Of a stretch of 21,028 nt of DNA, positions 1,812-21,028 are shown piece by piece. Position numbers and translations under genes: made by a program. Source of the DNA: a virus; the IMG/VR virus record IMGVR_UViG_3300027963_000394, positions 1 through 21,028 of that record. The stretch is one strand, 5' to 3'. How positions within the stretch are numbered: the first letter of the stretch is position 1; every line of letters begins with the position of its first letter. The notes beneath the pieces were generated by a model. The model saw only the letters and a program-made list of their open reading frames with translations, was not told where the DNA came from and ran no database searches.

Positions 1812-2636
1812 ATGGCAACAACTAAACCAGATTTTTTTAGTGGATGGGTAGAACCTAGGTCGCCGGCAAACGAAGATACGCCGCCTGTATATCCATTTAA
1901 TCATGTGCAATCGACACCTTCTGGCCATTCATTTGAGATGGATGACACACCAGATAGACAAAGGATTCGCCTGCAACATAGAATGGGCACATTCATAGAG
2001 ATGCATCCAAACGGCGACGAGGTGCATAAGGTTTATGGTGACGGTTACGAAATAACAATCAAAGATAAGAATGTTCTCGTTAAAGGCAAATGTAATATCA
2101 CTATTGAAGGTGATGCACAATTGCATTACATGGGCAACAAGACAGAATATATTGAAGGTAACTACGAATTACACGTTAAGAAATCATTTAATATTTTATC
2201 CGAAAGGTCAATCCAAATGACTTCACAATCTGATATGATGATTCGTGGAGGTAATGGTTTAACTGGCGCCATAGATATTCAAGCGGCAGATAACGTAACT
2301 ATAACGGCTGATGTAAACATAGAAGGTGGTGTAACCGCACAAAAAATGCTTTCACTTGGTGATGTTAACGCATTGACAGGTGTCCGTGCGGGACCATTAG
2401 GATTTGTTTCTGTTCTTGGAGGATTATCAATTGGTATTCCTGCTGCTACACCAGGAAATATTCTTTGTATCGGAACAATTGATGCCGGAGTAGCAATGAT
2501 CGCACCTTTGGGCATTTTCGGTACAATGAAAGCAATATTGATGACGGATATTGTAAACACTTCGATTTATAGTCGTCATGTACATATAACAAAAGTCGGG
2601 ACGACAACACCGCCAGCACCAGGACCAATGATTTAA
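1812..2636 (+). CDS. gp5-like central spike, beta-helix needle with HxH tip
   Basis: This 274-residue protein carries the family signature SGHSFEMDDTPDRQRIRLQH (residues 37-56), then GTFIEMHPNGDEVHKVYGDG. A run of gp5-type octads follows: VKGKCNIT (90-97), IEGDAQLH (98-105), YMGNKTEY (106-113) and IEGNYELH (114-121). In T4 such VxGxxxxx octads build the trimeric beta-helix needle. The last part contains RHVHIT with H256 and H258. An HxH near the end of contractile-tail spikes is known to bind iron at the tip, as in P2 gpV and phi92 gp138. No lysozyme domain is present. It lies in the hub operon, 13 bases after the previous stop, with TGAGGA (1796-1801) upstream. The role is a trimeric cell-envelope-piercing spike. 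That it docks on the separate OB-fold protein at 483-788 is inferred. Confidence 0.82.
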   Translation: MATTKPDFFSGWVEPRSPANEDTPPVYPFNHVQSTPSGHSFEMDDTPDRQRIRLQHRMGTFIEMHPNGDEVHKVYGDGYEITIKDKNVLVKGKCNITIEGDAQLHYMGNKTEYIEGNYELHVKKSFNILSERSIQMTSQSDMMIRGGNGLTGAIDIQAADNVTITADVNIEGGVTAQKMLSLGDVNALTGVRAGPLGFVSVLGGLSIGIPAATPGNILCIGTIDAGVAMIAPLGIFGTMKAILMTDIVNTSIYSRHVHITKVGTTTPPAPGPMI

Positions 2637-2646
2637 GGATTATATT

Positions 2647-3453
2647 ATGAGCACACCAATTTATTCATCGTTAAATTTTCCCGCATCAATGAGCAATAAT
2701 GTTGTTGACTTTGATTCAAGAACAAAAAAACATTTAGATAGTTTACCAAAATTAGTTTCAGAATGGCAATACGAAGATATGGCCAACAATGCCACAACTG
2801 GTTACTATGTAAATCCTGTTGCAAATGTTTGCAATACTATTATATCCATTGCATATCGAATTTATGGTACAACAAAAATTGCAAATGTTTCGTCTGATTT
2901 GCCTACCATAAATTCTTATGCATATTTATTGGCAAACACAGCAAATAATTTCTTATACCACACAAATCGAATATCTGGTATGCAACCTCCGACACAAGAT
3001 ACTGGTAATTTACCACATTTGGAATCGGCAATAAATACAGGAAGAGTTTTAACTTATTTTTTATATCAAAACGAAGGCATTTCAAACAATTCCATTATTT
3101 TAGGAAACTTTTCATCGTTATATACAGCTAACGATTTAATTGCATACGCGAATACAATTTCAGATTATCCAAATGTGGTTAACAATAGCATATATAGCGA
3201 AAGTTTACCATTAACTGGTTATAGGAGTAATTTATCCTCAATAATAAAAACACAAATGGCTTCCGATTTGAATAATATTATAACTTTTATGGCAAATACT
3301 GAAACTTCTGATGTTAATTTTTTCAATAACTCGCAAACCGTAGTAAGTGATTTTAATAAAGTAAAAGGTATGAATGCAATGGGTGCGACATACAATCAAT
3401 TGGTAAATGAAGTAATAGGTACAGACAAATTAAAGAGTAGCCTTAATCAATAA
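2647..3453 (+). CDS. Unrecognised 268-residue probable virion protein
   Basis: I cannot name this protein. It starts MSTPIYSSLNFPASMSNNVV and is rich in Asn, Ser, Thr and Tyr, with predicted helical stretches such as YLLANTANNFLYHTNRI and SSIIKTQMASDLNNIITFMA. It has no cysteine-rich, catalytic or membrane-spanning motif that I can see. It begins 10 bases after the spike stop (AAGGAT lies upstream) and ends 7 bases before gp25, so it is co-transcribed with baseplate genes. In T4-superfamily genomes this position often holds hub or wedge assembly factors such as gp53, gp26 or gp51. The 268-residue length and the sequence do not let me choose among them. A structural or assembly role is inferred from position only. 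Confidence 0.7.
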   Translation: MSTPIYSSLNFPASMSNNVVDFDSRTKKHLDSLPKLVSEWQYEDMANNATTGYYVNPVANVCNTIISIAYRIYGTTKIANVSSDLPTINSYAYLLANTANNFLYHTNRISGMQPPTQDTGNLPHLESAINTGRVLTYFLYQNEGISNNSIILGNFSSLYTANDLIAYANTISDYPNVVNNSIYSESLPLTGYRSNLSSIIKTQMASDLNNIITFMANTETSDVNFFNNSQTVVSDFNKVKGMNAMGATYNQLVNEVIGTDKLKSSLNQ

Positions 3454-3460
3454 ATAAAAA

Positions 3461-3865
3461 ATGTTAAAAACATCATTACAAAAAATATATTCGGACATAG
3501 ACTTCACTTTTGCCAGACAACCAGGCAAAACTGTGAAGGATTTGGCTTTAAGTTATGATGATAAAGCAGTTATTCGATCTGTTAGAAATTTATTATTGAC
3601 AAACCATTATGATAGATTATTTAATCCTGATATAGGATCCAATATATCATTTATTTTATTTGAACCTTTATCTGGTTCCACAGAAACTTCATTGGAAAGA
3701 GAGATTAGAACCACAATAAATAATTTTGAACCTAGAGTTGAAATCGAATCAGTTGTAGTTAACACCGACTATGATAGGAATGGTTACAATGTCACTTTAA
3801 CTTTTTACATACTTAATGCGACGGCAGCCACAGTAACAACACTTTTCTTAGAGAGAACAAAATAA
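3461..3865 (+). CDS. 25: Baseplate wedge protein gp25
   Basis: At 134 residues this matches the gp25/GpW-lysozyme-like family in length and motifs: SDIDFTFARQPGKTVKDLAL near the N-terminus, VIRSVRNLLLTNHYDRLFNP in the middle, then GSNISFILFEP, and the conserved NFEPRVEIESVVV (around residues 89-101) containing the E-P-R signature. In T4 gp25 forms part of the wedge core with gp6 and gp53 and links the baseplate to sheath polymerisation. It is encoded immediately before gp6, with one base between stop and start, as in many T4-like phages. The start has no clear Shine-Dalgarno sequence, only an A-rich leader, so translation may be coupled to the preceding gene. A 13-bp hairpin lies at 3502-3538 inside the gene. 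Confidence 0.9.
   Translation: MLKTSLQKIYSDIDFTFARQPGKTVKDLALSYDDKAVIRSVRNLLLTNHYDRLFNPDIGSNISFILFEPLSGSTETSLEREIRTTINNFEPRVEIESVVVNTDYDRNGYNVTLTFYILNATAATVTTLFLERTK
3502..3538 (+). other. Bulged inverted repeat (13-bp hairpin) inside gp25
   Basis: CTTCACTTTTGCC at 3502-3514 pairs with GGCAAAA (3524-3530) and GTGAAG (3533-3538), leaving a 9-base loop (3515-3523) and a two-base bulge CT (3531-3532). All 13 pairs are Watson-Crick. It lies about 40 bases into the gp25 coding sequence and is not followed by a U-run, so it is not a standard terminator. A role in mRNA stability or in tuning gp25/gp6 translation is possible. Chance is not excluded. Confidence 0.4.
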
Positions 3866-3866
3866 A

Positions 3867-5945
3867 ATGGCCTCTGCCAATTCATTAACACAATTTATAG
3901 ATTTAGATTTTGATTCAATTAAAAATAATTTAAAAACATTTTTAAGAGGACAAGATACTCTAAAAGATTACGATTATGAAGGGTCTGCAATGTCCGTTCT
4001 TTTGGATGTTCTTGCATATAATACACAATATAATGCTTATTATTTAAACATGATAGCGAATGAAATGTTTTTGGATAGTTCTGTGCAAAGAGGATCAGTT
4101 GCTTCACAGGCAAAATTATTAAACTATACACCATCATCAAGCATAGCACCGCAGGCAACAATAATTTTAACAATGAGTGGCGTAACAGATGCATCATTAA
4201 CATTACCAAAATACACAAATTTTTTATCTGAACCTATTGACGGTGTTAATTATAACTTTATTAATCCGAATGCATACACAGTTAATGTGGTTAATAATAC
4301 TGCTACGTTTGAAAATGTGGTCTTAAAACAAGGAAGATTATCCGCATTTAATTTCATCGTGAATAGTACAGAAAATCCAAAATATATTTTTGAAATATTG
4401 GATGAAAATATTGACACAACGACACTTTCCGTTTTAGTACAAGAAAATTCGACTAATACAACGACACAAATTTACAACAAAGCAAGCGACTTTTTAACAA
4501 TTGATGGCGACTCTTTAGTTTATTTCTTACAAGAAGGTAACAATAATTATTATGAAATTTATTTTGGTGATGGAATTTTAGGTAAAAAATTAAAAGATGG
4601 TAATATTGTAAAAGTTTCGTATATATCCACAGAAGCTACATTGAGTCACGGTGCAAATACGTTTTACTTGATGGACACAGTAGGCGGGTATTCAAACGGA
4701 TTAGTTACACCAATATCAGAAGCAACAAATGGTGTGCAAAAAGAATCTATAGAATCGATTAAATTTCAGGCACCCAAGAATTTTGCAGCACAAAATCGTG
4801 CAGTAACAAAGAATGATTACATGACATTGATACAACAAAACAAATTAGGTATCACATTTGATTCTGTTAGTGTTTGGGGCGGAGAAGAAAATGATCCGCC
4901 TCTATATGGAACAGTATTCATTTCTTTAAAACCTACAGGTGCATACGATTTAACAACAACACAAAAACAAAGGTTGGTCGAAGAGGTCATAAAACCTATT
5001 TCTGTATTAACAGTCACACCACAGATTGTGGATCCAGACTATGTTTATGTACAGTTAACAATTAATGTTTATTATGATCCAAATAAAACCACACAGACAT
5101 CTGGACAAATTCAAGAAGGCATCAAACAATCAGTATTTTCTTTTGCAACCAATACATTAAATACTTTTAATTCGACTTTTAACTCTTATACACTATTAAC
5201 TTATATTCAAAATTATAATCCCTCAATTATAACTACAGATTATGAGATGAGGTTGCAGAAAAAGTTTTATCCTAATTTATCGGTAGCAACAAATTATAAA
5301 TTTTTATTCAATACACAATTGCAAAAAGGTGTACTGACAAGTGGTGTCGGTAGTAGTCCTGGTCTAACATTTAAGGATCCATTAAATCCGGCTTTAGAAA
5401 TTAATAACATACAAATTGAAGAATATCCATCATTGACTTATGGTGTCGAATCAATTTCTATTATTAATCCTGGTTTCAATTATCAATCTACACCAACAAT
5501 TACAATTACAGGTGACGGCACTGGTGCAACCGCTACCGCAACTATTTCTGCTGGAAGTATTAGATCGGTTACTGTTACAAATGCAGGAAACAATTATACA
5601 TCTGCAATTGCAACTGTGACTCCAGCAGAAGGAGATTTAACCGGACAATTAGGTGCTCTTGTTGTAAATTTAGAGGGGCGATACGGAACACTTAGAACTT
5701 TTTACAATAGTAACACCGCAGTCAAAACAATATTAAAACAAAATGTGGGAACAATAGATTACAATGAAGGTGTTGTGACTTTAAATTCATTTAATCCTAT
5801 TGACATTGATAATCCTTTAGGCAATCTAACAATTTCAGTAAAACCTAAAACCACAACAATATCATCAACATATAATAGGATAATAACTATTGACCCATAT
5901 GATTCTGCATCTGTTGTGGTGAATGTAATAGCGCAACCTCAATAA
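3867..5945 (+). CDS. 6: Baseplate wedge protein gp6 (baseplate J family)
   Basis: The 692-residue product has the typical T4-like gp6 N-terminus. IDLDFDSIKNNLKTFLRGQD is followed by YDYEGSAMSVLLDVLAYNTQ and by NAYYLNMIANEMFLDSSVQR with a Gly-Ser continuation. A baseplate-J-like core follows with GNNNYYEIYFGDGILGKKLK (about residues 224-243) and NFAAQNRAVTKNDYMTLIQQ (about 307-326). In T4, gp6 dimers form the ring that ties the wedges around the hub. Near the C-terminus, residues 527-588 hold a Gly-Tyr-rich insert (INPGFNYQSTPTITITGDGT onward) that also occurs in other proteins of this window. It directly follows gp25, with GAGAGA at 3851-3856 as possible ribosome binding site. The length is close to T4 gp6. 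Confidence 0.9.
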   Translation: MASANSLTQFIDLDFDSIKNNLKTFLRGQDTLKDYDYEGSAMSVLLDVLAYNTQYNAYYLNMIANEMFLDSSVQRGSVASQAKLLNYTPSSSIAPQATIILTMSGVTDASLTLPKYTNFLSEPIDGVNYNFINPNAYTVNVVNNTATFENVVLKQGRLSAFNFIVNSTENPKYIFEILDENIDTTTLSVLVQENSTNTTTQIYNKASDFLTIDGDSLVYFLQEGNNNYYEIYFGDGILGKKLKDGNIVKVSYISTEATLSHGANTFYLMDTVGGYSNGLVTPISEATNGVQKESIESIKFQAPKNFAAQNRAVTKNDYMTLIQQNKLGITFDSVSVWGGEENDPPLYGTVFISLKPTGAYDLTTTQKQRLVEEVIKPISVLTVTPQIVDPDYVYVQLTINVYYDPNKTTQTSGQIQEGIKQSVFSFATNTLNTFNSTFNSYTLLTYIQNYNPSIITTDYEMRLQKKFYPNLSVATNYKFLFNTQLQKGVLTSGVGSSPGLTFKDPLNPALEINNIQIEEYPSLTYGVESISIINPGFNYQSTPTITITGDGTGATATATISAGSIRSVTVTNAGNNYTSAIATVTPAEGDLTGQLGALVVNLEGRYGTLRTFYNSNTAVKTILKQNVGTIDYNEGVVTLNSFNPIDIDNPLGNLTISVKPKTTTISSTYNRIITIDPYDSASVVVNVIAQPQ

Positions 5946-5950
5946 AATAA

Positions 5951-8917
5951 ATGTTAGATTACAAACCAAATACATCAATATTAATACCGTATCAGGTTCC
6001 AGAATTTGTCCGGGATAATCCGGATTATTCCACATTTATTTTATTTCTAAAATCATATTATGAATGGTTCGAACAGGGTGGCACAGCAAATACACCAGGA
6101 AATACTGGCGCCATATCTAAAAATCTTTTAGATTATAAAGATATTGACAAGACACCAGATCAATTTCTAGATTCTTTCTATAATGATTTTCTAAATTATT
6201 TTCCAAAAGAAATACTTGCAGACAAAACAAAAGTTACAAAACTTGCAAAAGAATTATATAAATCTAAAGGTACGCCGTCATCGTACAAATTTTTATTCAG
6301 AGTATTATATAATTCCGATGTAGACTTTTTCTTTACAAAAGATGTTGTTCTAAGACCTTCATCTGGAAAATGGTACGTTGCAAAAAGTTTAAGACTTTTA
6401 ACAACAGATACAAATTTTTTAAATATTAGTAACCTGAGACTTTTTGGAATAACATCAAAAGCAATTGCTACAGTCGAAAATTCTCTTGCTGCAGGAACTA
6501 AAACAGAAGTATTCATTTCAAACATATTAAGACTTTTCAGTTCTGGTGAATTTGTCAAGGTTGTTGATTCAAATAATCAAGATGTATACTTTAAAGACGG
6601 TGAAATTGTTTCATCAACCACTTCTGGTGCAGAAATTTTAACTGCAAAAATTGTTGGACAAATTAGTCAAATCAAAATAAACCCCAATTACAGAGGTCAA
6701 AATTATGTTGGTTATGACTCTGATACTGGTTATCCTGGCGACCCAATCGTTATCTACGGTGGTCTAAGTTCGAATACAGGAATTGGTGCAGAGGCAAAAG
6801 TCGGAACTGTAACGACAGGATCAGTTGTTTCTATCGCTACTTTGTTTGGTGGTTATGGTTATAGAGAAGATCCAAACACACAAATTGTATTTACAAACTT
6901 AGTTGGTAGAAGTCCAAGAACGCCTATTGCTACAGTAGGTTCTGTTAATGTTGCATCATCAACGATGGCCAATGTTAGAATCTCGATTGATTATATAGGG
7001 TTAGCAGGGTTAACACGAATTAACGCCGCAGCATATAGTTGGTCTACAGCAAATACACTTGCAACGGCAAACTCAAGAATTGCAAACACATTAACTTATA
7101 CTTCTTTTACAACATATCCAATATCATCAGTAATTGTGCAAAATGGCGGTGGCGGATTAACACAAAAACCAACGGTAACAGCACAATCGGTATACCAAAG
7201 AGCATATTCCGGATCATACTCGGGAACAAATGCAGACCTTAAAAATTTAGGTATACTTGCACCAATTCAAATTGTTTCTGGTGGCACAGGTTATGTTGCT
7301 AATGATAGAATAAACATTCTTGGTGGAACTGGTGCCGGTGCGTATGCGAATGTTATAACCGTAAGTGGATCAGGGGCAATTACTTCTGTTAGTTATGTTA
7401 ATCCACCATCAAGTAATACAGCAAATAGTTTCTACCCTTATCCTTTGGGCGGATTAGGTTATTCCGCTTCTGTACTACCAATAGCAAATGTAACTTCTTC
7501 AAATGTTCTTGCATCAAACGCTATACTTACGATATCAGGAATACTAGGTGATGGTGCAGTATTAGAACCTGCAACAGATCGAATTGGTCAAATACAATCA
7601 ATATCAATTTCAAATTATGGTGAAGATTATATTGCAGCACCAACAGTATCATTTAAGGTACAAGATATTGTAGTTAAGAATATTAGTCTAGGTAATTTGC
7701 CAAGTAAAGGTGACCCAATCTATCAAGGTGCAAATTCAAATGTTGCATCATATACTGCATCTGTGGATTACGTTGAGCAAATATCTACAGATGCGAATCC
7801 ATTACAATCATTATTCTTTATTAGGATTTACAACTATAGTAAAGCAAGACCAAACACAAGTCTGCCATTAAAGATTGATTCAAAATCAATATCTATGAAT
7901 GTTGTCACAGGAACTTTATCTTCTTCTGTCGGTTATCCAAGGTATTCGACAATAGCAGAAGGTAGATATGATACTGCAAATAACATATACACATACGGTG
8001 ACGGCACAGCAAAAGGCACTGCAACATTCTTAAATGGACTTACAATTGGTGACGGGCAATATCTAGATTCTACAGGGCAGTTAAGTTCTTCTGATGTTTT
8101 ACAAAGTGTTGATTATAATAATTACACATATCAAATTACATTAGAAAAAGAAATCGCAAAATATAGAAAACTTTTATTAGAACTTCTTCATCCTGCAGGA
8201 ACAAGGTTAAGAGGACGTTTTGCGATGAAATCAAATTCATCAATAGATTTCAATTTATATGATGCATTGTATCAAGGATATCCTTTGTCAAGGTTATTAT
8301 CCGATACAGTTGTCACATTTAATATGGTCTCAGATTTCACAAATTACAGTAACAATATTATAAGATTCTTGAATGTTAGTGGTGGCACAAATATTGCTAA
8401 TATATTTACGACAAATACCCTCGTTAAATTTACGACAGCAAATGGAGATGTTGGCGCAGGGTTAATTAACTCAATAAATTATGTTGCAAATACAATTACT
8501 TTGACAACAAATACATGGTTAACATTTGGAAATGTTGCGGTTGTATCATCTAATGCGAACAGTTGCACTATAAATATTACGGCATTAACAGATTCGTACA
8601 ATATAATTAATAATGGAGTTTACTCAAATACTGCTGCACCATTAAGAGATATTATTAAAGCTGGTGACATAATACAAACAAATAATATGATAAGGACTGT
8701 GAGTAGTGTCAATTATTCTACAAATGTTATTACTTTAACTGCGAATTTAACTTATGGATCAAGCGGATATATGTCTGTAAGAAGAACTTATACGGGTATT
8801 CCATCAAACTTTATTGTTTATGGACCTGTTGGACAAGAGTATTTCACAGAAATTGTAATTGAAAATGGTCTATATACTATAACAGATGAAGACGGTAAAA
8901 CAATCCTATTAGATTAA
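5951..8917 (+). CDS. Large baseplate/virion structural protein in the gp7 position
   Basis: This 988-residue protein lies between gp6 and the fibre and gp8 genes, where T4 has gp7, and is similar to gp7 in length. The N-terminus (residues 10-120) has the pattern I know from large T4-superfamily structural proteins: VPEFVRDNPDYSTFILFLKS, YYEWFEQ, then ELYKSKGTPSSYKFLFRVLY. The C-terminal third carries LLLELLHPAGTRLRGRF (about 745-761), also usual in this family. The middle holds several Gly-Tyr-rich units, for example GGYGYREDP near 299, VSGGTGYVANDRINILGGTG near 440-460 and NYGEDYIAAPTVSF near 555. The likely role is a wedge or wedge-fibre connector. Membership of a virion structural family is well supported. 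Direct homology to T4 gp7 is inferred from position and length. Confidence 0.7.
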   Translation: MLDYKPNTSILIPYQVPEFVRDNPDYSTFILFLKSYYEWFEQGGTANTPGNTGAISKNLLDYKDIDKTPDQFLDSFYNDFLNYFPKEILADKTKVTKLAKELYKSKGTPSSYKFLFRVLYNSDVDFFFTKDVVLRPSSGKWYVAKSLRLLTTDTNFLNISNLRLFGITSKAIATVENSLAAGTKTEVFISNILRLFSSGEFVKVVDSNNQDVYFKDGEIVSSTTSGAEILTAKIVGQISQIKINPNYRGQNYVGYDSDTGYPGDPIVIYGGLSSNTGIGAEAKVGTVTTGSVVSIATLFGGYGYREDPNTQIVFTNLVGRSPRTPIATVGSVNVASSTMANVRISIDYIGLAGLTRINAAAYSWSTANTLATANSRIANTLTYTSFTTYPISSVIVQNGGGGLTQKPTVTAQSVYQRAYSGSYSGTNADLKNLGILAPIQIVSGGTGYVANDRINILGGTGAGAYANVITVSGSGAITSVSYVNPPSSNTANSFYPYPLGGLGYSASVLPIANVTSSNVLASNAILTISGILGDGAVLEPATDRIGQIQSISISNYGEDYIAAPTVSFKVQDIVVKNISLGNLPSKGDPIYQGANSNVASYTASVDYVEQISTDANPLQSLFFIRIYNYSKARPNTSLPLKIDSKSISMNVVTGTLSSSVGYPRYSTIAEGRYDTANNIYTYGDGTAKGTATFLNGLTIGDGQYLDSTGQLSSSDVLQSVDYNNYTYQITLEKEIAKYRKLLLELLHPAGTRLRGRFAMKSNSSIDFNLYDALYQGYPLSRLLSDTVVTFNMVSDFTNYSNNIIRFLNVSGGTNIANIFTTNTLVKFTTANGDVGAGLINSINYVANTITLTTNTWLTFGNVAVVSSNANSCTINITALTDSYNIINNGVYSNTAAPLRDIIKAGDIIQTNNMIRTVSSVNYSTNVITLTANLTYGSSGYMSVRRTYTGIPSNFIVYGPVGQEYFTEIVIENGLYTITDEDGKTILLD

Positions 8918-8925
8918 GGTAAAAA

Positions 8926-10695
8926 ATGTCTACAATTAAAATTTCACAATTACCCGCATTAACATCAATTTCTTCAAATACGCAAAACACTTTATTTATA
9001 GCTGTTGATTTGCCGACTAGTACAACAGGAAAATTGACAGGAAAAGCTTTGGCACAAGGGTTGTTTGCGAATGAAGTTTTAAATGTTGGTAATAATGCTA
9101 TTGTTTATCCTAATGTTATAGGGCAATTTGCTGGTTCAAGTAATACATATTTACAAATTAATCTTCAGAATTTCAATTCAAATGGTTCTTCCGACTTTGT
9201 TGCATCTACAAGTGATAGTGATAACTCAGTAAAATATATTGATTTTGGTATAAGCGGCAACACATATAACGATCCTATCAACTATAGTGCATTTAAAGCA
9301 TATGACGGATATATGTATGTATATGGTCCATCAAACACAAGTCAGCAAGGTAATTTAATCATAGGTACTGCATCAACAAGAGCAAATATTGTATTTCTTG
9401 TTGGTGGATTAGGCACAGGCAACATTGTTGGTAGAGTCAGCAATTCTTCATTTGATTTCCTCAAACCAGTTTATGTGACAGGTAACGTGAATACCACTGG
9501 GTCTTTCATATTCTCTGATGGTTCAGTTCAAACCACAGCCTATACCAGCGTTTATGCTCAAAGTGGTGCTACATCTGCGTATGCAACTCAAAAAGTTTTA
9601 CAGTATAATCCGTCAACCAATGCCGTTACATACAGCAATACTTTGGATGCGGTAAGAGCATACATCACAGGATACAGTTCAGAAATTCACGTTAGTCCTG
9701 TTGCGGTTGATGACACTGGCAACGGAACCATTGGTGATCCAGTTAAAACCATTGCTCGTGCCAAGGTACTCTTAGCCGCGGCTTTTGAAACAACTGCGGC
9801 TGGTCAAAGAAAGACAATTATCTTACATCCGGGCAGTTATGCAGAAGATGTAACAATTGATACTCAGTACACTGTTTTAACCACACACGAGTTGGTGGGT
9901 AAAAGTACAACACTGGCTGGTACATTGACTCTTACAACAGGATGTACCGTTGATGGTTTAAAGATGACCAATCTTGTTATTTCAGGATCATCAGCAGGAG
10001 GTTCGATTGATATTATTGGTTGTACTGTGACAACCGCAACAACAAAAACATCAACAGCATACACAGTTTTTAGAGGATGTGATTTATCTTCATCAACACT
10101 AAGCATTACTGGTGGCGGCACAACAATACTAAATGGTGGTAATTATTTTACACTTACAGTGAACAATGCGGCCGCTGGAGTTTTAGCCAAATCAGTTGTT
10201 AGTATGGGCCCAGTGACACTGACACTAGGAACGCTACAACTTTCTGACACGCTGATTTACTCTGCTACCAATACATCCTATGCCATAACGCAAAGTGCTA
10301 ATTCAGTCATAACAATAAACAATTGTCAGACACTAATACCAGATTTGTCAAATGTGTCGAGAAATAGTTTGAGTGGTTTCTATTCTATCCTAAGCAGTGT
10401 TTATGATCGACCAAACTCAATCTTAGCCACTTTATCTGCGACTGGTGGTCCGTTAAATTCAATTATATATGATCAGTACATCAATGCTGATCGATTAATT
10501 CTATCAGCAGGTGGTAGAATAACGTTCCCAGATGCCACATACCAAACCACAGCCTATACTGGATTAACCCCTAACGATACTAAAGCATCAAATGCTACTG
10601 GTACTGCTGGACAAACTAGTTACGATTCTAATTACTTTTATGTTTGTATAGCAACCAATACATGGCGTCGTGTGGCACTGGGTAGCACTTATTAA
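8926..10695 (+). CDS. Tail fibre-like protein with two QTTAY motifs and a central beta-solenoid-like region
   Basis: The 589-residue product starts MSTIKISQLPALTSISSNTQ, a common start for T4-superfamily fibre or neck-appendage proteins. Two motifs typical of fibre modules are present: FSDGSVQTTAYT near residue 196 and FPDATYQTTAYT near 535. Between them, residues about 245-510 contain HVSPVAVDDTGNGTIGDPVK, IILHPGSYAEDVTI and many short Thr/Val/Ile strands with periodic turns, suggesting a pectin-lyase-type beta-solenoid. The C-terminus, YDSNYFYVCIATNTWRRVAL, is a module often found at the end of such proteins. The part after about 9470 is richer in G+C than the first 180 codons: sampled 60-base blocks gave 50% at 9721 and 48% at 10201, against 27% at 8941. 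AAGGT lies before the start. The likely role is host recognition or a decorating fibre. Confidence 0.72.
   Translation: MSTIKISQLPALTSISSNTQNTLFIAVDLPTSTTGKLTGKALAQGLFANEVLNVGNNAIVYPNVIGQFAGSSNTYLQINLQNFNSNGSSDFVASTSDSDNSVKYIDFGISGNTYNDPINYSAFKAYDGYMYVYGPSNTSQQGNLIIGTASTRANIVFLVGGLGTGNIVGRVSNSSFDFLKPVYVTGNVNTTGSFIFSDGSVQTTAYTSVYAQSGATSAYATQKVLQYNPSTNAVTYSNTLDAVRAYITGYSSEIHVSPVAVDDTGNGTIGDPVKTIARAKVLLAAAFETTAAGQRKTIILHPGSYAEDVTIDTQYTVLTTHELVGKSTTLAGTLTLTTGCTVDGLKMTNLVISGSSAGGSIDIIGCTVTTATTKTSTAYTVFRGCDLSSSTLSITGGGTTILNGGNYFTLTVNNAAAGVLAKSVVSMGPVTLTLGTLQLSDTLIYSATNTSYAITQSANSVITINNCQTLIPDLSNVSRNSLSGFYSILSSVYDRPNSILATLSATGGPLNSIIYDQYINADRLILSAGGRITFPDATYQTTAYTGLTPNDTKASNATGTAGQTSYDSNYFYVCIATNTWRRVALGSTY
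9529..9545 (+). repeat. 17-nt direct repeat, copy 1 (encodes QTTAY)
   Basis: CAAACCACAGCCTATAC occurs here and again at 10543-10559, identical over 17 bases and in the same reading frame. The spacing from start to start is 1014 bases, exactly 338 codons. It encodes Gln-Thr-Thr-Ala-Tyr of the fibre motif. Confidence 0.9.
10543..10559 (+). repeat. 17-nt direct repeat, copy 2 (encodes QTTAY)
   Basis: This is the second identical copy of CAAACCACAGCCTATAC, in frame with copy 1 at 9529-9545. The two copies bracket the beta-solenoid-like part of the fibre gene. Confidence 0.9.
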
Positions 10696-10726
10696 AATAC
10701 GGTAAATATACTAAAGAGAGCGGATT

Positions 10727-10843
10727 ATGGCAACTATACAAACAATCAACATTGGTAACATTGTGAACGACGGCTTAGGCGATGATCTACGAATGGGATT
10801 CAATATTCTTGCAAATACATATTGTTCTGTCTCATATAGTTAA
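10727..10843 (+). pseudogene. 38-codon remnant of a T4-superfamily structural protein (MATIQTINIGN family)
   Basis: The short frame reads MATIQTINIGNIVNDGLGDD, then LRMGFNILANTY and a short tail SVSYS before TAA at 10841-10843. This start is one I recognise from longer structural proteins in T4-like phages, where GDDLRTAFQKVNANF is followed by a few hundred residues. Here the frame loses the family pattern after about residue 31 and stops, and gp8 begins 13 bases later. AAGAGAG (10714-10720) could act as ribosome binding site, so a 38-residue peptide may still be made. The base composition of its first 75 bases resembles the G+C-richer fibre segment before it, which suggests that both arrived together and that the junction near 10820 is a recombination scar. 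A functional mini-protein is the alternative. Confidence 0.6.
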
Positions 10844-10856
10844 TCGGAATTAAATA

Positions 10857-12260
10857 ATGGCAAATAAAAATCTTCTCACTTATGGGTTTAGTTTAGAACA
10901 AGTAATACAAAATTATTTTGCTCCTTCCGCAACTGTTGCAGGAAAAAATATCAATAATATGTATTGTTTTTTGTCGAAAGTTTTACCTTGGACTGATGAT
11001 ACAAATCCGGAACAGCCGACACAAGACCAAAGATATTTAAAAGATGTATTTAAAAATATGTTTGTGGCAAAAAGAATCACATCCAATGATGTTTCTGGTG
11101 TCGTAGAAAGAATAAATTGGGTTTCTGGTTTAACTTATGATTATTATCGTGACGATATTGATATGTTTGAACTCGATGATAATGGGTTTCTAATAAAACA
11201 ATTTTATATTATCAATAGATACGATCAAGTATTTAAGTGTTTGTGGAACAACAATGGCGGCACATCTACAGTAGAACCAATGTTTCAACCTGGAACTTAT
11301 GGAACAAATAACATTTATTTGGGTTCTGACGGTTACAAATGGAAGTTTATGTTTACAGTTTCCGGACAAAGTAAGTCTAAATTCATGGACAGAGAATGGA
11401 TTCCTGTATCAATCTCTTCTAATACTACTCCTAATCCAATTCAAACAACTGCGGGATATGGCGACATTGAAGTGATAAATGTTGTCAGCGGCGGAAGTGG
11501 TTATGATTCTGGCAATTCGTCTATTGTTGTTACGATTTCTGGCGATGGATCAGGTGCTACTGCAAATGCAACCGTATCTGGCGGTGCAATAAGTCAAGTG
11601 TATGTTAATGCAGCTGGTTCAAATTACACATATGCAAATGTATCTATAAAAGGAACTACTGCAAATGGTTCAACATTAGGTAGTGGCGTTTCTTTATTGT
11701 CACCAATTTCTCCTGTCGGTGGTCATGGATTTGATCCAAAATCTGAATTAGGTTGCCGACATTTTATGATTACAACTGAATTTAATGCAAAAGAAACATA
11801 CAATTCTGTTAATTATATACCTACTGATATTGACTTCCGGCAAGTTGGATTACTGTTAAATCCAACATCGGTAAGTAGTTATCCAAATTCAGCAAATGGT
11901 AACATTTATAATATTGCAACACAGTTTACAGTTTCTTCAGGATTTGGAAGTTATGTTCCTGATGAAGAAGTGTATCAGTATACTTCTTTAATCGATGGAT
12001 TACCAGATAAAACTTTCACTGCTACTGTATTAAGTTTTAATCCTGTAACAAATATATTACAGTTAATAAATACATCAGGAACTTACACTACTTCAGCACA
12101 GTTATATAGCGGAACATCAGGAACAACAAGGACTTTATTAAGTGCAAGTACGCCAAACTTTTATAAATTCTCTGGTTATATAATTTATCTAGAGAACAGA
12201 AGTGCCGTTACAAGAAGTACAGACGGAATAGAACAATTTAAATTCGTTTTGGGATATTAA
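10857..12260 (+). CDS. 8: Baseplate wedge protein gp8-like
   Basis: The 467-residue product shows gp8-family features: FLSKVLPWTDDTNPEQPTQD (about residues 38-57), the KRITSNDVSGVVERINWVSG segment (about 77-96), YDYYRDDIDMFE, IINRYDQVFKCLWNNNGG, a YLGSDGYKWKFMFTVSG segment and a late GCRHFMITTEFNAKE. In T4, gp8 dimers sit in the wedge with gp7 and gp10. The protein is longer than T4 gp8 (334 residues). Part of the excess is a Gly-Tyr-rich insert at about 209-264 (VVSGGSGYDSGNSSIVVTIS onward) that is shared with gp6 and other proteins in this window. It is separated from its usual gp7-side neighbour by the fibre gene and the remnant at 10727-10843. The start at 10857 has only an A-rich leader. 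Confidence 0.8.
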   Translation: MANKNLLTYGFSLEQVIQNYFAPSATVAGKNINNMYCFLSKVLPWTDDTNPEQPTQDQRYLKDVFKNMFVAKRITSNDVSGVVERINWVSGLTYDYYRDDIDMFELDDNGFLIKQFYIINRYDQVFKCLWNNNGGTSTVEPMFQPGTYGTNNIYLGSDGYKWKFMFTVSGQSKSKFMDREWIPVSISSNTTPNPIQTTAGYGDIEVINVVSGGSGYDSGNSSIVVTISGDGSGATANATVSGGAISQVYVNAAGSNYTYANVSIKGTTANGSTLGSGVSLLSPISPVGGHGFDPKSELGCRHFMITTEFNAKETYNSVNYIPTDIDFRQVGLLLNPTSVSSYPNSANGNIYNIATQFTVSSGFGSYVPDEEVYQYTSLIDGLPDKTFTATVLSFNPVTNILQLINTSGTYTTSAQLYSGTSGTTRTLLSASTPNFYKFSGYIIYLENRSAVTRSTDGIEQFKFVLGY

Positions 12261-15200: not shown

Positions 15201-17468
15201 TATACCAGAAGTAATCTTTCTGTCGAACCGGTTAAACATAAAACATATAAGATGCAAGATATTACTGGCATCGAAGAAAGAATTAACAACTTAGAATATT
15301 ACGCATCTCTAAATCTAGTGGAACAAGGCGCGTCTGGTTTGCAAATAACTGATGCTAACGGTTTGAATAGATTTAAAAATGGAATTTTAGTTGACGATTT
15401 CTCCACATTTAATGTTTCAGATTCATATAATCCAGATTTCTCTGTTGGAATAGATACAACAAGAAGCATTTTATCACCAGCAATAGTCGTTAAAAACTTC
15501 CCACTTAGAAATCTTTTATTGACGCAAACAAATAATACACCAACAGATGCAACAATAAGTGGATTATCTTACAAAATGTACAATTTGGGCAATAGTAATT
15601 TGTACAGTTTACCATACACAGAAACATCTATCGTATCGCAAACTATAGCAAGTAAGGCCTTGAGTGTGAATTCATCCACAATTAGTTATGCTGAAGGATC
15701 AGTTGAAATTTATCCAACAATGGATAATTGGATCGATACAACTGCTGATCCGGCATTTATGTTTATTGATCCTACACTCACACAATATAAAGCTGTTGAC
15801 CGCCTTAATACTTTAGATGGTGATCCTACATTATCTGTTTCCAATTGGCAACAAATTCCTGGAACACAAAGAGAAGTTATTACAAATAGTGAGTATGATG
15901 TTCGTACTGCTGGAGCAACAAGAACTGAAACTCGTTATTATGCACCAGCTTATGAAGGTCAAGATGGCACCTCAGAAGAAGTGACAGTAACAACTGGTGC
16001 AGGCGTAACAACTTACAAATCACTTAATACAAAAACGTATTCCGACGTACAGAACACATATACTCAGGGCAAGTACGCAAGGAGTTATGATTCACAATTA
16101 AATTATATCAGCAATATATCAATATTACCTTACATTAAACAACAATTTATTGAATTTAAGGCAACAGACCTTTTAATCAATACAAAATTAAATGCCTTCT
16201 TTGACGGTCAAAGAGTCACAAGACAAATAAGAAGACCAAATATTTTAGAATTGACCAGTGTGACTGGAACATTTAGGCGCGGTCAAGCCATTGGATATCT
16301 ATCAGGAAGTACCTACATATATACCGGATTTATTACTGATGTGTATGTGTATCCAACAAATACAACTAATGTTCGTTTATATGTATCTGGTGATGATGCA
16401 ACAACAACATATGGTGCAACAGTTGTCAGTATCACACAGTCGGGCGGAGTTTATTCCGCTTCGGGTGCTTCCGGAACATTATCAACCAGAACACATTATT
16501 CTGGTGTAGTAAGTGCATCTGGAACTGGTACCGCAACTGTCACATTAGCATCAACTGCATCTAGTACTACAGACTATTATGTTGGTCAATATTTGTATAT
16601 TGTTGGTATGAATTCATCATCCGTGTTGTCTGTACCAATTGGACGCAGTTTAGTTATTACAGCATATAATGGAACAACAAAAGTTGCAACAGTTGCTTAT
16701 GATGGCGGTGGTACTCCAACTGTCACAACGGTTTCTGGTCAAGATGTTTATTCGATTGGTGACCTGACAACAAACGAAACAGGAAATATAACTGGAATAT
16801 TTTATGTTCCGGGTAATTACTTTCAAACTGGTCCAAGAGAATTCATTTTAGACAATAGAGTTGTCGATAGATCAGGAAACATTTACACATACAATCAAGG
16901 AACAGAAACAACTTTTGCAAAAACAACTTTCTTCGCACAAGGGTTATCGACTAGAACACAACAAGTTAATTTCTCTGCATCAATTCAAAATCCACAAACA
17001 TTTACTAGAACAGACGTTCTAAGAAATCAAGTTATTTCGGATGTGACAAATACAACTAGTACATTTGTTGAAGATTATGTTGCACCTCCACAAAATAATA
17101 AAGGTTGTTGTGTCGTTTCGACGGCATTTGCGGACCAAGGAATTTGGAAACAAAATCAAAAAGATGAATTGATTGAATGGTGTGAAAAGTACCTACACAA
17201 TAATATACTCGGCGAATGTTTCCGTAGAGGATATCAAGTTCTTGGATCTAAATTTGTTCCAAGTATTCGGTCAGATAATAAATATTTGAAATATTGGAAA
17301 AAATATTGTGTGTGGGCATTTAATAATGGAACAAATATGGTTCAAGGACAAAAATTTAATCCAATTACCATACCAAATTCGTTGGTTTGGATTACTGCTT
17401 TCATGATAACTGGTATGATTGTTTCGAAAAAATATGCTGATGATTGTTGGAAAAAATTGTATAAGTAA
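12270..17468 (+). CDS. DUF4815-type giant virion structural protein with Cys-containing C-terminal domain
   Basis: This 1732-residue protein opens with the DUF4815 signature: NFNTDPYYDDFDPNKNFHRI (residues 4-23), then LFKPGYSVQARELTQSQTIL. Family motifs recur around 1000-1045, IEERINNLEYYASLNLVEQ and NGLNRFKNGILVDDF. Between are Thr/Ser-rich beta repeats, and residues about 1330-1560 look like added beta-sandwich modules. The end is different: from residue 1612 the sequence GCCVVSTAFADQG begins a compact domain of about 120 residues with six further Cys, several Trp and LGECFRRGYQVLGSKFVP. It loosely recalls the C-terminal 'CFI-box' tails of phage and bacterial surface proteins and has one hydrophobic run near 1707-1720 (VWITAFMITGMIVS). 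Members of this family form peripheral baseplate or fibre-base structures. AAGGG at 12259-12263 precedes the start. The C-terminal domain's role is unknown. Confidence 0.8.
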   Translation: MALNFNTDPYYDDFDPNKNFHRILFKPGYSVQARELTQSQTILQNQISQFADAIFKQNTPVSGGQVTTNLRVGYLKLNPSYNDEDVVAENFLNRTVQNAYGNVVARVVATAEATDADPYPTLMLNYFTGTTFANNSLVTISDAAYSYTANSISSGATGLGSIATIANGVFYIVNGYSYSDTLDSNGNPLKYSIGNFVNVVPQTIILSKYSNTPNVRIGLEITETIYDYVNDTSLLDPAIGASNYQAPGADRYVVDVSLTTKPLEFGDDQNFIELARVESGVIVKQINETEYSKIDDYFAKRTYETNGDYVVDDFKLTPKAAIDSNNWVLSIGPGVAYVHGYRVENQSTTTITSTRARTTDFVNNNSVFTDYGNYFYVDTFSGANSSFIDVTQANTVDLHVVGNSNVFTGNTNIYNSTLAATGYVRSIDYETATGTTANTYVYRLHMFDIQNKVLSGNITSATATTITINDTTSKFSTVANAYTGVAVTIDSGTGLNQTSTVTTYSGSTKILTVSPAFTITPDSTSKFSLKFSVKDVETVVRAANTGTSYTIYGSSNINNLSKSNGYTTGDTILQNPSVQELLFTIGNPYVANTSGTAPTYATEITFKNLTFSTDGASGSKVELNLTTLGLSSAFNFLRSGSSETSDAIKQNFLVLSTSTGSLLNLTSGTRSIVVNAAKTLATITLPDLAAGYTGIVIAKMTVTDASSALVRKTKTLVTANTSANGAPASATVVGNTKIDLTNSQVYISSGDIQSSGVNQLLYVSDVKNIVKILDTKGVAPNISMYSSANYDVTSNYLFNNGQTDNYYGHAYLKLKPGAPKPTALWVFFNYYSHGGGDGYFSVDSYLNESYAAIGAYTSTSGRIYNLTDSLDFRPAVKNGQSSFVFRYSNEASNQNGLLLPIDSSIFTHKYYYYLGRKDVLTINKDKTFTLKSGTPSLSPNFPAVAKDELLLARITLDPYTAYVQSEVSGKNSLVYGPYTRSNLSVEPVKHKTYKMQDITGIEERINNLEYYASLNLVEQGASGLQITDANGLNRFKNGILVDDFSTFNVSDSYNPDFSVGIDTTRSILSPAIVVKNFPLRNLLLTQTNNTPTDATISGLSYKMYNLGNSNLYSLPYTETSIVSQTIASKALSVNSSTISYAEGSVEIYPTMDNWIDTTADPAFMFIDPTLTQYKAVDRLNTLDGDPTLSVSNWQQIPGTQREVITNSEYDVRTAGATRTETRYYAPAYEGQDGTSEEVTVTTGAGVTTYKSLNTKTYSDVQNTYTQGKYARSYDSQLNYISNISILPYIKQQFIEFKATDLLINTKLNAFFDGQRVTRQIRRPNILELTSVTGTFRRGQAIGYLSGSTYIYTGFITDVYVYPTNTTNVRLYVSGDDATTTYGATVVSITQSGGVYSASGASGTLSTRTHYSGVVSASGTGTATVTLASTASSTTDYYVGQYLYIVGMNSSSVLSVPIGRSLVITAYNGTTKVATVAYDGGGTPTVTTVSGQDVYSIGDLTTNETGNITGIFYVPGNYFQTGPREFILDNRVVDRSGNIYTYNQGTETTFAKTTFFAQGLSTRTQQVNFSASIQNPQTFTRTDVLRNQVISDVTNTTSTFVEDYVAPPQNNKGCCVVSTAFADQGIWKQNQKDELIEWCEKYLHNNILGECFRRGYQVLGSKFVPSIRSDNKYLKYWKKYCVWAFNNGTNMVQGQKFNPITIPNSLVWITAFMITGMIVSKKYADDCWKKLYK

Positions 17469-17899: not shown

Positions 17900-19561
17900 A
17901 TGGCCATAACAATTAGTGATCCGTTAGCACAAACATTTTTGATAGATAGTAGTACTTATCCGAACGGAGCTTTTCTAAGTTCTGTTAATTTATTTTTTAG
18001 TGCAAAACCTGGAACAAATTTAAGTCTTCCTATAAACATTTCAATAGTGCCAACACAAAGTGGTTATCCTACTGGAAAAATTTTAGATTATTCATATGTT
18101 TCTTTGACACCAGATAAAGTTAAGATTAGTGATCAACCATATTATCAAGACACATCAACTTACACCACATTTACATTTCCTGTACCGGTAAAAATTAATG
18201 CAGATGAGTTGTACGCTATTATTGTGAAATCAAATTCACCAGATTATTATATTTGGACAGCAATACAAGGCGAAACAGCAATACGTTCGACACTAAAAAC
18301 ATCGAACACCGCATCTATACCAACAGAATCGACAAAGATTACTTCTTTACCTAAAGTCGGTTCGTTATTCAAATCACAAAACTCCATCACATGGAGTGCG
18401 ATTCAAAATGAAGCATTGATGTTTCAGATTAATAGATGCGTGTTTAATACTGCATTAACACCAACAATTCAATTTACAGTACCAAAAGGATTGCCGCAAT
18501 CCAGAGGAATAGTTCCTTCGTCTTTACAAGCAACTGCTAATGTAAAATACGACACTTTAAACATATCGACTACGGCAATAAATCCTGGACCTACTGCGAT
18601 TTCATACACATATACGCCCACATTGAGCAGTGGATCAACAGATGATACGAAAAGAATTGTGCCAGGTTCTTTTGGATCGCCAATGGAAACAAGTGTATAT
18701 TTAAACGATAACAAAGGATATAGAGTATTAGACTACACATCAAACACTTCTTTCTCTTTAAATGCAACAATGACTTCATATGATGATGCGGTATCTCCGT
18801 TATTATCGGATGATGGATTAGCTCTTTACACAACAAGAAATAGAATAAACAATTTAGAACTTTCAAATAGTTCATTTGTTATTATTTCTGGTGGTACCGG
18901 TTACACAATAAGCGGATCGGCAAACGGAACATTTACAAGTCCAAACATTGCTATCTCTGCGCCGACTAGTTCAAACGGAACACAAGCATATGTAACTGCA
19001 AATGTTATAAATGGAGTAATTGATAGAATTTATGTGACAACTCCTGGATCAGGTTATGTAGCGACACCAAATGTAACTATATTGCAACCGAATACAACAT
19101 CTGCGGTCATAACTATTAGCGGAGAAACTTCTACAAGTGGTGGCAATGCAAACTCTCGTTACATTTCAAAAGTAGTAACTTTAGCAAGCGGTTTAGATTC
19201 ACAAGATTTAAGAGTATATTTTACTGCTTATAGACCACCAAATAGTGATATTAATGTGTATTATAAGATTCTTTCTAGACAAGATACACAACAATTAAGT
19301 TCTCAATCATGGCAGTTGATGACGTTAATCTCTAATTCTGATACGTTATATTCTCAAAATTTTGGTGATGTTTATGAGTACGTTGCGGCACCGGGAACAA
19401 ATAATGTTCCTTCAGGGTTAATTTCTTATACCAATACCGCAGGAATAACATTCAATGACTTCTATCAATTCGTAATTAAGATTGTATTATCTTCGGCAGA
19501 CAGTACTTTTTCACCTTACTTGAACGATATGCGAGTCATTGCATTGCCATCTGGAGTGTAA
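17900..19561 (+). CDS. DPLAQTF-type virion structural protein
   Basis: The 553-residue product begins ITISDPLAQTFLIDSSTYPN (residues 3-22), then GAFLSSVNLFFSAK and SGYPTGKILDYSYVSL. This domain is usually found in, or fused to the end of, DUF4815-type proteins of T4-superfamily phages. Here it has its own start codon, preceded by GAGGA at 17889-17893. The C-terminal half has QDLRVYFTAYRPPNSDINVY, WQLMTLISNSD and FYQFVIKIVLSSADSTFSPY, then the typical last strand LNDMRVIALPS. A Gly-Tyr-rich module at about 328-397 (ISGGTGYTISGS to GSGYVATPNVTILQP) matches those in gp6, gp8 and the 988-residue protein. The likely role is a peripheral baseplate or fibre-attachment component acting with the protein at 12270-17468. 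Confidence 0.78.
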   Translation: MAITISDPLAQTFLIDSSTYPNGAFLSSVNLFFSAKPGTNLSLPINISIVPTQSGYPTGKILDYSYVSLTPDKVKISDQPYYQDTSTYTTFTFPVPVKINADELYAIIVKSNSPDYYIWTAIQGETAIRSTLKTSNTASIPTESTKITSLPKVGSLFKSQNSITWSAIQNEALMFQINRCVFNTALTPTIQFTVPKGLPQSRGIVPSSLQATANVKYDTLNISTTAINPGPTAISYTYTPTLSSGSTDDTKRIVPGSFGSPMETSVYLNDNKGYRVLDYTSNTSFSLNATMTSYDDAVSPLLSDDGLALYTTRNRINNLELSNSSFVIISGGTGYTISGSANGTFTSPNIAISAPTSSNGTQAYVTANVINGVIDRIYVTTPGSGYVATPNVTILQPNTTSAVITISGETSTSGGNANSRYISKVVTLASGLDSQDLRVYFTAYRPPNSDINVYYKILSRQDTQQLSSQSWQLMTLISNSDTLYSQNFGDVYEYVAAPGTNNVPSGLISYTNTAGITFNDFYQFVIKIVLSSADSTFSPYLNDMRVIALPSGV

Positions 19562-19562
19562 T

Positions 19563-19793
19563 ATGGCACTTGTAAAGGTTGAAGGTACAAATTTTTATAG
19601 AGACACAAAAACTTTAGCATTAATTAATTCTGACACGGCTGGAAGAGAAGATTATTTAACAAAGAAAAAACTATTAAATAATCAAAAAGAAGAAATAAAT
19701 AAAGTAAGGTCCGAAATTAATGAAATAAAAAATGATTTATCTGATATAAAATCTTTAATGCTACAAATATTAGAAAAAGGTAAAAATGGCTAA
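19563..19793 (+). CDS. Small conserved coiled-coil virion protein (76 residues)
   Basis: The start at 19563 is chosen over an upstream in-frame ATG at 19539 because MALVKVEGTNFYRDTKTLAL is the expected family N-terminus, the upstream codons lie inside the previous gene, and GGAG at 19553-19556 is well placed. The N-terminal third (VEGTNFYRDTKTLALINSD) resembles small conserved proteins found beside fibre genes in T4-superfamily phages. Residues about 34-72 form a Lys/Glu-rich heptad run (KEEINKVRSEINEIKNDLSD, then IKSLMLQILEKG), a clear coiled coil. Its stop overlaps the next start by 8 bases, indicating coupling to the repeat protein that follows. The function is not known to me. It may be a trimeric connector or chaperone. 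Confidence 0.7.
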   Translation: MALVKVEGTNFYRDTKTLALINSDTAGREDYLTKKKLLNNQKEEINKVRSEINEIKNDLSDIKSLMLQILEKGKNG

Positions 19794-21028
19794 TACCGTA
19801 AATATCATAAGTGCTGCTAATACATTCTATGAATGGATGGGAGCAACAATAAATCTCACAGTAGAAAATAATACTTTAGCTAAAAGTGATTATACAAAAG
19901 ATTCTGGTGTATTAATTTTAAACGGAACACCGCAATCATTGAGAGCAAACGGACCTGTTTTCGTTTATAGTACATTTCAAGTTACTGGCGTAGGTTCAAG
20001 TGCAACAATTGATAACAATTTAGGCGTTGGCGGGCAAGCATATTTTACAAATACATCTTTAAGTATCATTGCATCTGGTCAAGCAAACGTACAAGGACCA
20101 GTATTTGCTTTAGGTTCTAATACCGGTCTCACAGTTGCAAACACAGCAAATATTGGGGGCAATTTAAATGTTACTGGACCAACAGCATTAGGTAATACTA
20201 TCAGTGTTGTGGGTAACGGAACATTTTCTAGTAATTTAGTTGTTCGAAATGATGTAACATCAAATACTTTACAAGCAAATCTTAGTATAAACACAGCAAC
20301 GATATCGGTTACTGGTACTGGATTGATGAACATTCTTCAAGCAAATACGTCTGTTAACACTAGAACACTATCTGTAACTGGTACTGGATTCGTAGATGTT
20401 CTTCAAGCAAACACATCAGTAAATACTAGAACATTAAGTGTTACTGGTACTGGATTCGTAGATGTTCTTCAAGCAAACACATCAGTAAATACTAGAACAC
20501 TATCTGTAACTGGTACTGGATTCGTTGATATTCTACAAGCTAATACATCTGTTAATACTGCAACTGTTAATACTAGAACATTATCTGTAACAGGTACTGG
20601 ATTCGTTGATATTCTACAAGCAAATACATCTGTTAATACTGCAACTGTTAATACTTCCAATTTAAGTGTTGTAAATACTGGATTTGTTAATGTTCTACAA
20701 GCAAACACATCAGTAAATACTAGAACATTATCTGTAACAGGTACTGGATTCGTAGATGTTCTTCAAGCAAACACATCAGTAAATACTGCAACTGTTAATA
20801 CTAGAACATTATCTGTTATCGGTACTGGATTCGTTGATATTCTACAAGCTAATACATCTGTTAATACTGCAACTGTTAATACTAGAACATTATCTGTTAT
20901 CGGTACTGGATTCGTAGATGTTCTTCAAGCAAACACATCAGTAAATACTGCAACTGTTAATACTAGAACATTATCTGTTATCGGTACTGGATTCGTTGAT
21001 ATTCTACAAGCTAATACATCTGTTAATA
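19786..21028 (+). CDS. Tandem-repeat tail fibre-like protein (3' end beyond window)
   Basis: An open frame starts at ATG 19786 and runs to the window edge with no stop (414 codons visible). AAAAAGG at 19774-19780 is the ribosome binding site. The N-terminal part (MANTVNIISAANTFYEWMGA, then TINLTVENNTLAKSDY) is of a type seen at the start of fibre-like proteins in T4-superfamily phages. A beta-rich stretch with Gly-Asn repeats follows to about residue 170. From there the protein is tandem repeats of RTLSVTGTGFVDVLQANTSV plus NT, or plus NTATVNT. These repeats have a strand-turn-strand pattern with no Pro or Cys, as expected for a trimeric fibre shaft. The receptor-binding tip, if present, lies past 21028. 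The role is inferred to be a fibre or adhesin shaft. Confidence 0.72.
   Translation, partial: MANTVNIISAANTFYEWMGATINLTVENNTLAKSDYTKDSGVLILNGTPQSLRANGPVFVYSTFQVTGVGSSATIDNNLGVGGQAYFTNTSLSIIASGQANVQGPVFALGSNTGLTVANTANIGGNLNVTGPTALGNTISVVGNGTFSSNLVVRNDVTSNTLQANLSINTATISVTGTGLMNILQANTSVNTRTLSVTGTGFVDVLQANTSVNTRTLSVTGTGFVDVLQANTSVNTRTLSVTGTGFVDILQANTSVNTATVNTRTLSVTGTGFVDILQANTSVNTATVNTSNLSVVNTGFVNVLQANTSVNTRTLSVTGTGFVDVLQANTSVNTATVNTRTLSVIGTGFVDILQANTSVNTATVNTRTLSVIGTGFVDVLQANTSVNTATVNTRTLSVIGTGFVDILQANTSVN
20296..21028 (+). repeat. In-frame tandem repeat array of 66- and 81-bp units
   Basis: Units begin at 20296 (degenerate), 20362, 20428, 20494, 20575, 20656 (diverged), 20722, 20803, 20884 and 20965 (cut by the window). 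Those at 20296, 20362, 20428 and 20656 are 66 bp (22 codons). Those at 20494, 20575, 20722, 20803 and 20884 are 81 bp (27 codons), differing by the 15-base insert GCAACTGTTAATACT. Two synonymous versions exist, one with GTAGATGTTCTTCAAGC and one with GTTGATATTCTACAAGC. They alternate in the last four units, which makes a 162-bp higher-order period. Confidence 0.95.

Follow-up and report, generated by a model that had tools for sequence, protein, structure and literature searches.

A 22/27-residue repeat shaft in a probable T4-type myophage tail fibre gene that runs into the end of its contig

Gene content upstream of the fibre

We analysed all 21,028 bases of the viral record IMGVR_UViG_3300027963_000394 (hereafter the window). 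Its plus strand carries a series of T4-type baseplate genes at 1812..12260, namely gp5-like (1812), gp25-like (3461), gp6-like (3867), wedge-like (5951) and gp8-like (10857) genes, with ORFs of 268 aa (2647) and 589 aa (8926) among them. The baseplate proteins matched phrog_430, phrog_261 and phrog_438 in PHROGs, Pfam Gp6-like_1st and Gp6_C-III were found above cut-off, and the gp6 homologue shares 40% identity with Pelagibacter phage HTVC008M. With homologues of gp5, gp25, gp6 and gp8 upstream of the fibre, the region represents a T4-type tail module. The genes are tightly packed, apart from 161 bases at 10696-10856 that separate the gp8 homologue from the 589-residue protein and for which no ORF is listed on either strand.

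Positions 12270-17468 encode a 1,732-residue protein, apparently of the tail or baseplate, which ends in a stretch that includes cysteine and a hydrophobic segment (CCVVSTAFADQG...ITAFMITGMIV). Next on the plus strand are a tail-associated protein (17900..19561, phrog_358), with relatives in Rhizobium and cyano-myophages, and a small virion structural protein (19563..19793, phrog_473) upstream of the fibre. The fibre ORF itself (19786-21027, plus strand) consists of an N-terminal domain followed by ten units of 22 or 27 residues and is open at the contig end.

Repeat units and their two DNA versions

The N-terminal domain comprises about 138 residues (19786..20199), as delimited by alignment and by identity to relatives, and by analogy would be the attachment end. 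It is separated from the canonical units by a transition at 20200..20301. When unit phase is set to start at 20302, the lengths are 22, 22, 22, 27, 27, 22, 27, 27 and 27 residues, followed by 19 residues of a unit cut by the contig end. The units of 22 and 27 codons with nearly the same peptide, described in an earlier sequence-only reading of this DNA, are thus present, ten of them from 20302 onwards. Five of the nine complete units have 27 residues, and these are the carriers of an extra ATVNT.

The core of the unit is encoded by two DNA versions, A (GTA GAT GTT CTT CAA GCA AAC ACA TCA GTA AAT) and B (GTT GAT ATT CTA CAA GCT AAT ACA TCT GTT AAT). That reading had called them synonymous; two versions do exist, but one of their mostly synonymous differences changes Val to Ile. 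The array starts with three 22-residue units (20302..20499), of which the one at 20302 is divergent and those at 20368 and 20434 are of version A. Two 27-residue units of version B follow, each with the ATVNT insert (20500..20661), and then a 22-residue hybrid unit (LSVVNTGFVNVLQANTSVN; 20662..20727), which resembles a recurrent unit type of the relative L005 (50/57 nt). Three 27-residue units of versions A, B and A (20728..20970) and the last, incomplete unit of version B (20971..21028) complete the array, all on the plus strand. From 20368, the order of versions is therefore A, A, B, B, hybrid, A, B, A, B, and the alternation claimed for the last four units is indeed seen: neighbours are unlike, and each unit is identical or almost identical to the next but one. 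Elsewhere in the fibre gene, units of the same version differ at 2-4 of 57 bases. All five 27-residue units have the same insert DNA (ACTGCAACTGTTAAT), whether the preceding DNA is A or B, which indicates that the insert has spread between the versions by recombination.

Relatives of the fibre

A search of IMG/VR with the whole protein found 13 loci, and a search with an alignment of the N-terminal domain confirmed 240, of which the best 80 were kept. The N-terminus is conserved across this family; complete fibres measure 683 to 1,723 residues, and their shafts contain up to about 26 units or are absent altogether. That the array is a fibre shaft was borne out by relatives which share the N-terminal domain as well as units of 22 residues and, when complete, carry Peptidase_S74. 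This domain was above the Pfam cut-off in all four complete fibres tested (L006, L007, L010 and L012), and Collagen was detected in L005, L006 and L007. In the closest complete relatives, the shaft is followed by collagen-like repeats and then by Peptidase_S74; by analogy, the window fibre would have its own S74 C-terminal domain beyond the contig end at 21028. The fibre is in this respect comparable to the S74 tail fibres of cyano-myophages and uncultured Caudovirales, as its close relatives end likewise, but its own C-terminus is missing and its 22-residue unit has no convincing Pfam or PDB match. Synechococcus phage structural proteins were weakly matched by L006 in tblastn (30-38% over part of the protein), and the same program found nothing for the window protein in 50,697 phage records. 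Sequence matches of the repeats in PHROGs, Pfam and PDB were weak, fell in unrelated families and were rejected as chance.

Some of the more distant relatives have tips other than Peptidase_S74. Behind the same N-terminal domain, varied tips were observed (RFMAYKVGT, VTVSSGAVWTIV, STVLINYIGNFA, KLIEAVIL), i.e. swapped fibre tips, in L055-L062, L066, L028, L033, L022, L023, L081, L086 and L090, and a motif search of these swapped-tip relatives saw no Peptidase_S74. One of them, L057, has a fibre of 1,368 residues compared with 1,626 in its close relatives L055 and L056, pointing to an early stop or frameshift near the tip.

The fibre genes of L005-L008 share the N-terminal domain and the shaft repeat period with the window, but their units are almost all of 22 residues, in contrast to the mixture of lengths described above. 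As the sequence-only reading had expected, shaft length varies between phages: L005 has about 21 units and L007 about 25, at an N-terminal nucleotide identity of 96.5%. On the other hand, shaft length was constant within five sets of phages that are near-identical but come from different samples (L010/11/14, L055/56, L058/61/66, L073/75 and L080/82/83/91), in a comparison where assembly favours arrays without long exact repeats. The description of the shaft as actively evolving is accordingly plausible between lineages; at the level of populations it was not supported, near-identical phages sharing their shaft length. Separately, L012 and L013, which come from two samples and are at least 99.9% identical in flanking blocks, are distinguished by a single 33-bp unit in another array of the fibre gene, located downstream of the 22-residue shaft. 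Four copies of an 11-residue repeat (NVSTLNTNISS) are present at L012:7657-7793 and three at L013:7657-7760, a natural copy-number variant.

The two parts of the window fibre resemble different relatives. Its N-terminal domain shows amino acid identities of 95% to L006, 80% to L008 and 61-62% to L005 and L007, while all nine canonical units from 20368 match L005/L007 at 46-51 of 57 nt and L006 at only 37-42 of 57. Measured per 60 bases, identity to L006 declines at 20206, within the transition, from 49-60/60 to 39/60. As the N-terminus is L006-like and the shaft L005/L007-like, the shaft module was probably exchanged in one of the lineages.

Unit spacing and fold

Unit spacings in the family other than 22 and 44 residues cluster near 16.5, 27.5, 33, 38.5, 49.5 and 55. 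After close relatives had been thinned out, every phage contributed each of its spacings a single time. The concentration at a 5.5-residue period then came to 0.75-0.94 according to the match threshold, was stronger under the stricter one and was reached by none of 5,000 uniform sets, even when periods anywhere between 4 and 12 were allowed; the units had been placed by their similarity to a single consensus, a procedure in which self-similarity within a unit could shift the anchors. A period of 11 alone gave a concentration of 0.08-0.10 and does not account for the spacings. Viewed over the relatives L005-L091, shaft spacings appeared quantised at 16/17, 22, 27, 33, 38, 44, 49 and 55, multiples of about 5.5 residues. 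Given spacings on such multiples, ATVNT resembles a single increment of a shaft that lengthens by 5 or 6 residues at a time. Two rung lengths in one shaft, as proposed earlier, is a true description but not a special one, since spacings of 27 and 33 residues recur in several relatives and the ATVNT insert is not unique to the window.

An AlphaFold2 model of the single chain predicted stacked strands throughout at low confidence (mean pLDDT 64), and no structural match of the model in PDB had an E-value below 0.8. For perfect repeats, AlphaFold2 predicts beta-solenoids too readily (PMC11795689). Given its pLDDT and the lack of a match to a solved structure, the monomer model was not accepted as support for any one fold. 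Its best matches in a viral structure library were A0A6J5LIE8 and A0A6J5T5Y3 of uncultured Caudovirales phages (UniProt; 33-35% identity), the latter annotated with an intramolecular chaperone domain; both are predicted structures only, with TM-scores on the query of 0.53 and 0.29, respectively.

The 127-base repeat at the contig end

Positions 20740..20866 and 20902..21028 (both plus strand) are identical over 127 bases at an offset of 162 bp, the match being bounded by mismatches on the left and by the contig end on the right. In an exact repeat count, this was the sole 127-mer occurring twice in the window, and no 128-mer was repeated within it. The 64-base match between 20803 and 20965 reported previously was thus correct but understated. 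The second-longest exact repeat in the window's fibre gene has 77 bases; internal exact repeats in the rest of the fibre genes examined reach at most 110, and exact in-gene repeats of 96-110 bases occur in L005, L006, L007 and L012. When synonymous codons were permuted among same-residue positions (60 trials), the longest exact repeat averaged 28 bases and never exceeded 42, compared with 126 observed, a value that refers to the coding stretch analysed and not to the full match of 127. Considering this maximum of 42, and 127 identical bases against 2-4 differences per 57 elsewhere, the two-unit block is best explained by a duplication or conversion that was likely recent. Of the recent two-unit duplication put forward by the sequence-only reading, the recency is thus likely, while duplication and conversion both fit.

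In published work, JGI metagenomes were assembled by metaSPAdes with k = 33, 55, 77, 99 and 127 (PMC11584781; PMC7171226), and contigs broken at repeats have end sequences of length maxK (PMC10914622). The terminal sequence of exactly 127 bases, maxK in JGI practice, recurs in the contig, and its second copy, which ends at the contig's last base, would be a vertex of the k = 127 graph. Most likely, the contig ended at an unresolved repeat of that graph with a loop of 162 bases, k being taken from published JGI practice and not from this record; the agreement of 127 with the JGI maximum could also be coincidence. As the contig appears to stop at a repeat that the assembler could not resolve, the number of units counted is a minimum for a truncated gene. 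With such a loop, either the block occurs two or more times or unit order differs among strains. The assembly artefact named earlier as a counter-explanation is thus partly realised, as the contig stops exactly at a repeat of the metaSPAdes maximum k used by JGI.

This type of end is not general, since none of 16 other truncated fibres ends in a 127-base repeat found in its own contig. Contig ends amounted to 0.061 per kb inside the fibre gene compared with 0.012 upstream and 0.062 just downstream, numbers that do not show a fibre-specific excess, and a comparison of locus ends among contigs was uninformative owing to the presence of near-identical contigs. An exact search for version A and B DNA in viral contigs, from which records very near the window may be excluded, found no other record, and thus neither another assembly of this phage nor a downstream piece was recovered.

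Interpretation

The structure of this fibre is of an ordinary kind, a stalk of 22/27-residue repeats. We assign a probability of about 0.8 to the reading that the feature is the shaft of a T4-type myophage tail fibre, that its array was shaped by recombination between repeats and that the contig end is an assembly break. According to this reading, the N-terminus would dock the fibre, which is probably trimeric, to the baseplate, the units would build a stiff, beta-rich stalk whose number of units sets its reach, and the distal end would bind the host; in complete relatives, Peptidase_S74 would act as a self-cleaving chaperone at the fibre end. The trimeric, beta-rich form and the link between unit number and reach are carried over from S74 fibres as a class. 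The array would change through duplication and conversion between repeats and also through exchange of shaft modules among related phages, its most recent product being the last block of versions A and B, 81 bp each. The assembler would then have met the 127-base repeat and stopped at 21028, truncating the gene.

As for how the two 127-base copies arose, gene conversion rather than block duplication might have made them identical. Exchange between units is evident from the hybrid unit at 20662 and the shared insert DNA of A and B units, yet the identity covers one and a half units in the 162-bp register, for which one duplication is simpler, and we regard conversion as possible but rather unlikely. 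It is more doubtful still that the 162-bp higher-order repeat is an assembly product, joined from strains with different unit orders that share the 127-mer and tandem in no single phage. Mixed strains could close the graph loop in this manner, the repeat has a length of exactly k and lies at the contig end, and exact in-gene repeats of complete relatives do not exceed 110 bases; a single strain, however, needs fewer assumptions, and the 96-110-base repeats of L005, L006, L007 and L012 make block copying normal in this family. Least of all do we credit that the synonymous alternation was selected to keep neighbours different and so to suppress recombination, which appears very improbable. While adjacent units in the last four do differ, in the window and in most relatives neighbours are as similar as distant units or more so, and the arrangement created a 127-base identity instead of avoiding one. 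Selection for alternating codons was not supported by this comparison.

Shaft length might also be a contingency trait, with repeat recombination constantly yielding longer and shorter fibres in one population. The long exact repeats lie in frame, in multiples of three bases, the L012/L013 pair differs by one unit in its second array, and coevolution of Enterococcus phage EfV12-phi1 gave rise to adaptive tail fibre tandem duplications that vary in number (PMC6365445). The likeness to EfV12-phi1 consists in tandem duplication in frame within a myophage fibre gene, but its blocks are of 1.8 kb and arose in the laboratory, whereas the units of the window are of 81/162 bp, natural and known from one sequence. 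The constant shafts of the five near-identical sets speak against such a trait, with the above reservation about assembly, and we consider it improbable. Little weight is likewise given to the wider proposal of an adjustable-length fibre, in which a population would hold many unit counts, the loop would be a trace of that mixture and the fold would grow in steps of about 5.5 residues.

If the latter were true, a phage lineage could tune the reach of its fibre to the host surface. More generally, fibre genes built of repeats change in length and swap shaft modules more quickly than other parts of the tail do, and short-read viral genomes can break at them, so that some environmental phages probably have receptor-binding ends that are absent from their sequences or wrongly counted. 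Finally, the spacing step of about 5.5 residues would provide a testable constraint on the unsolved fold of the shaft.
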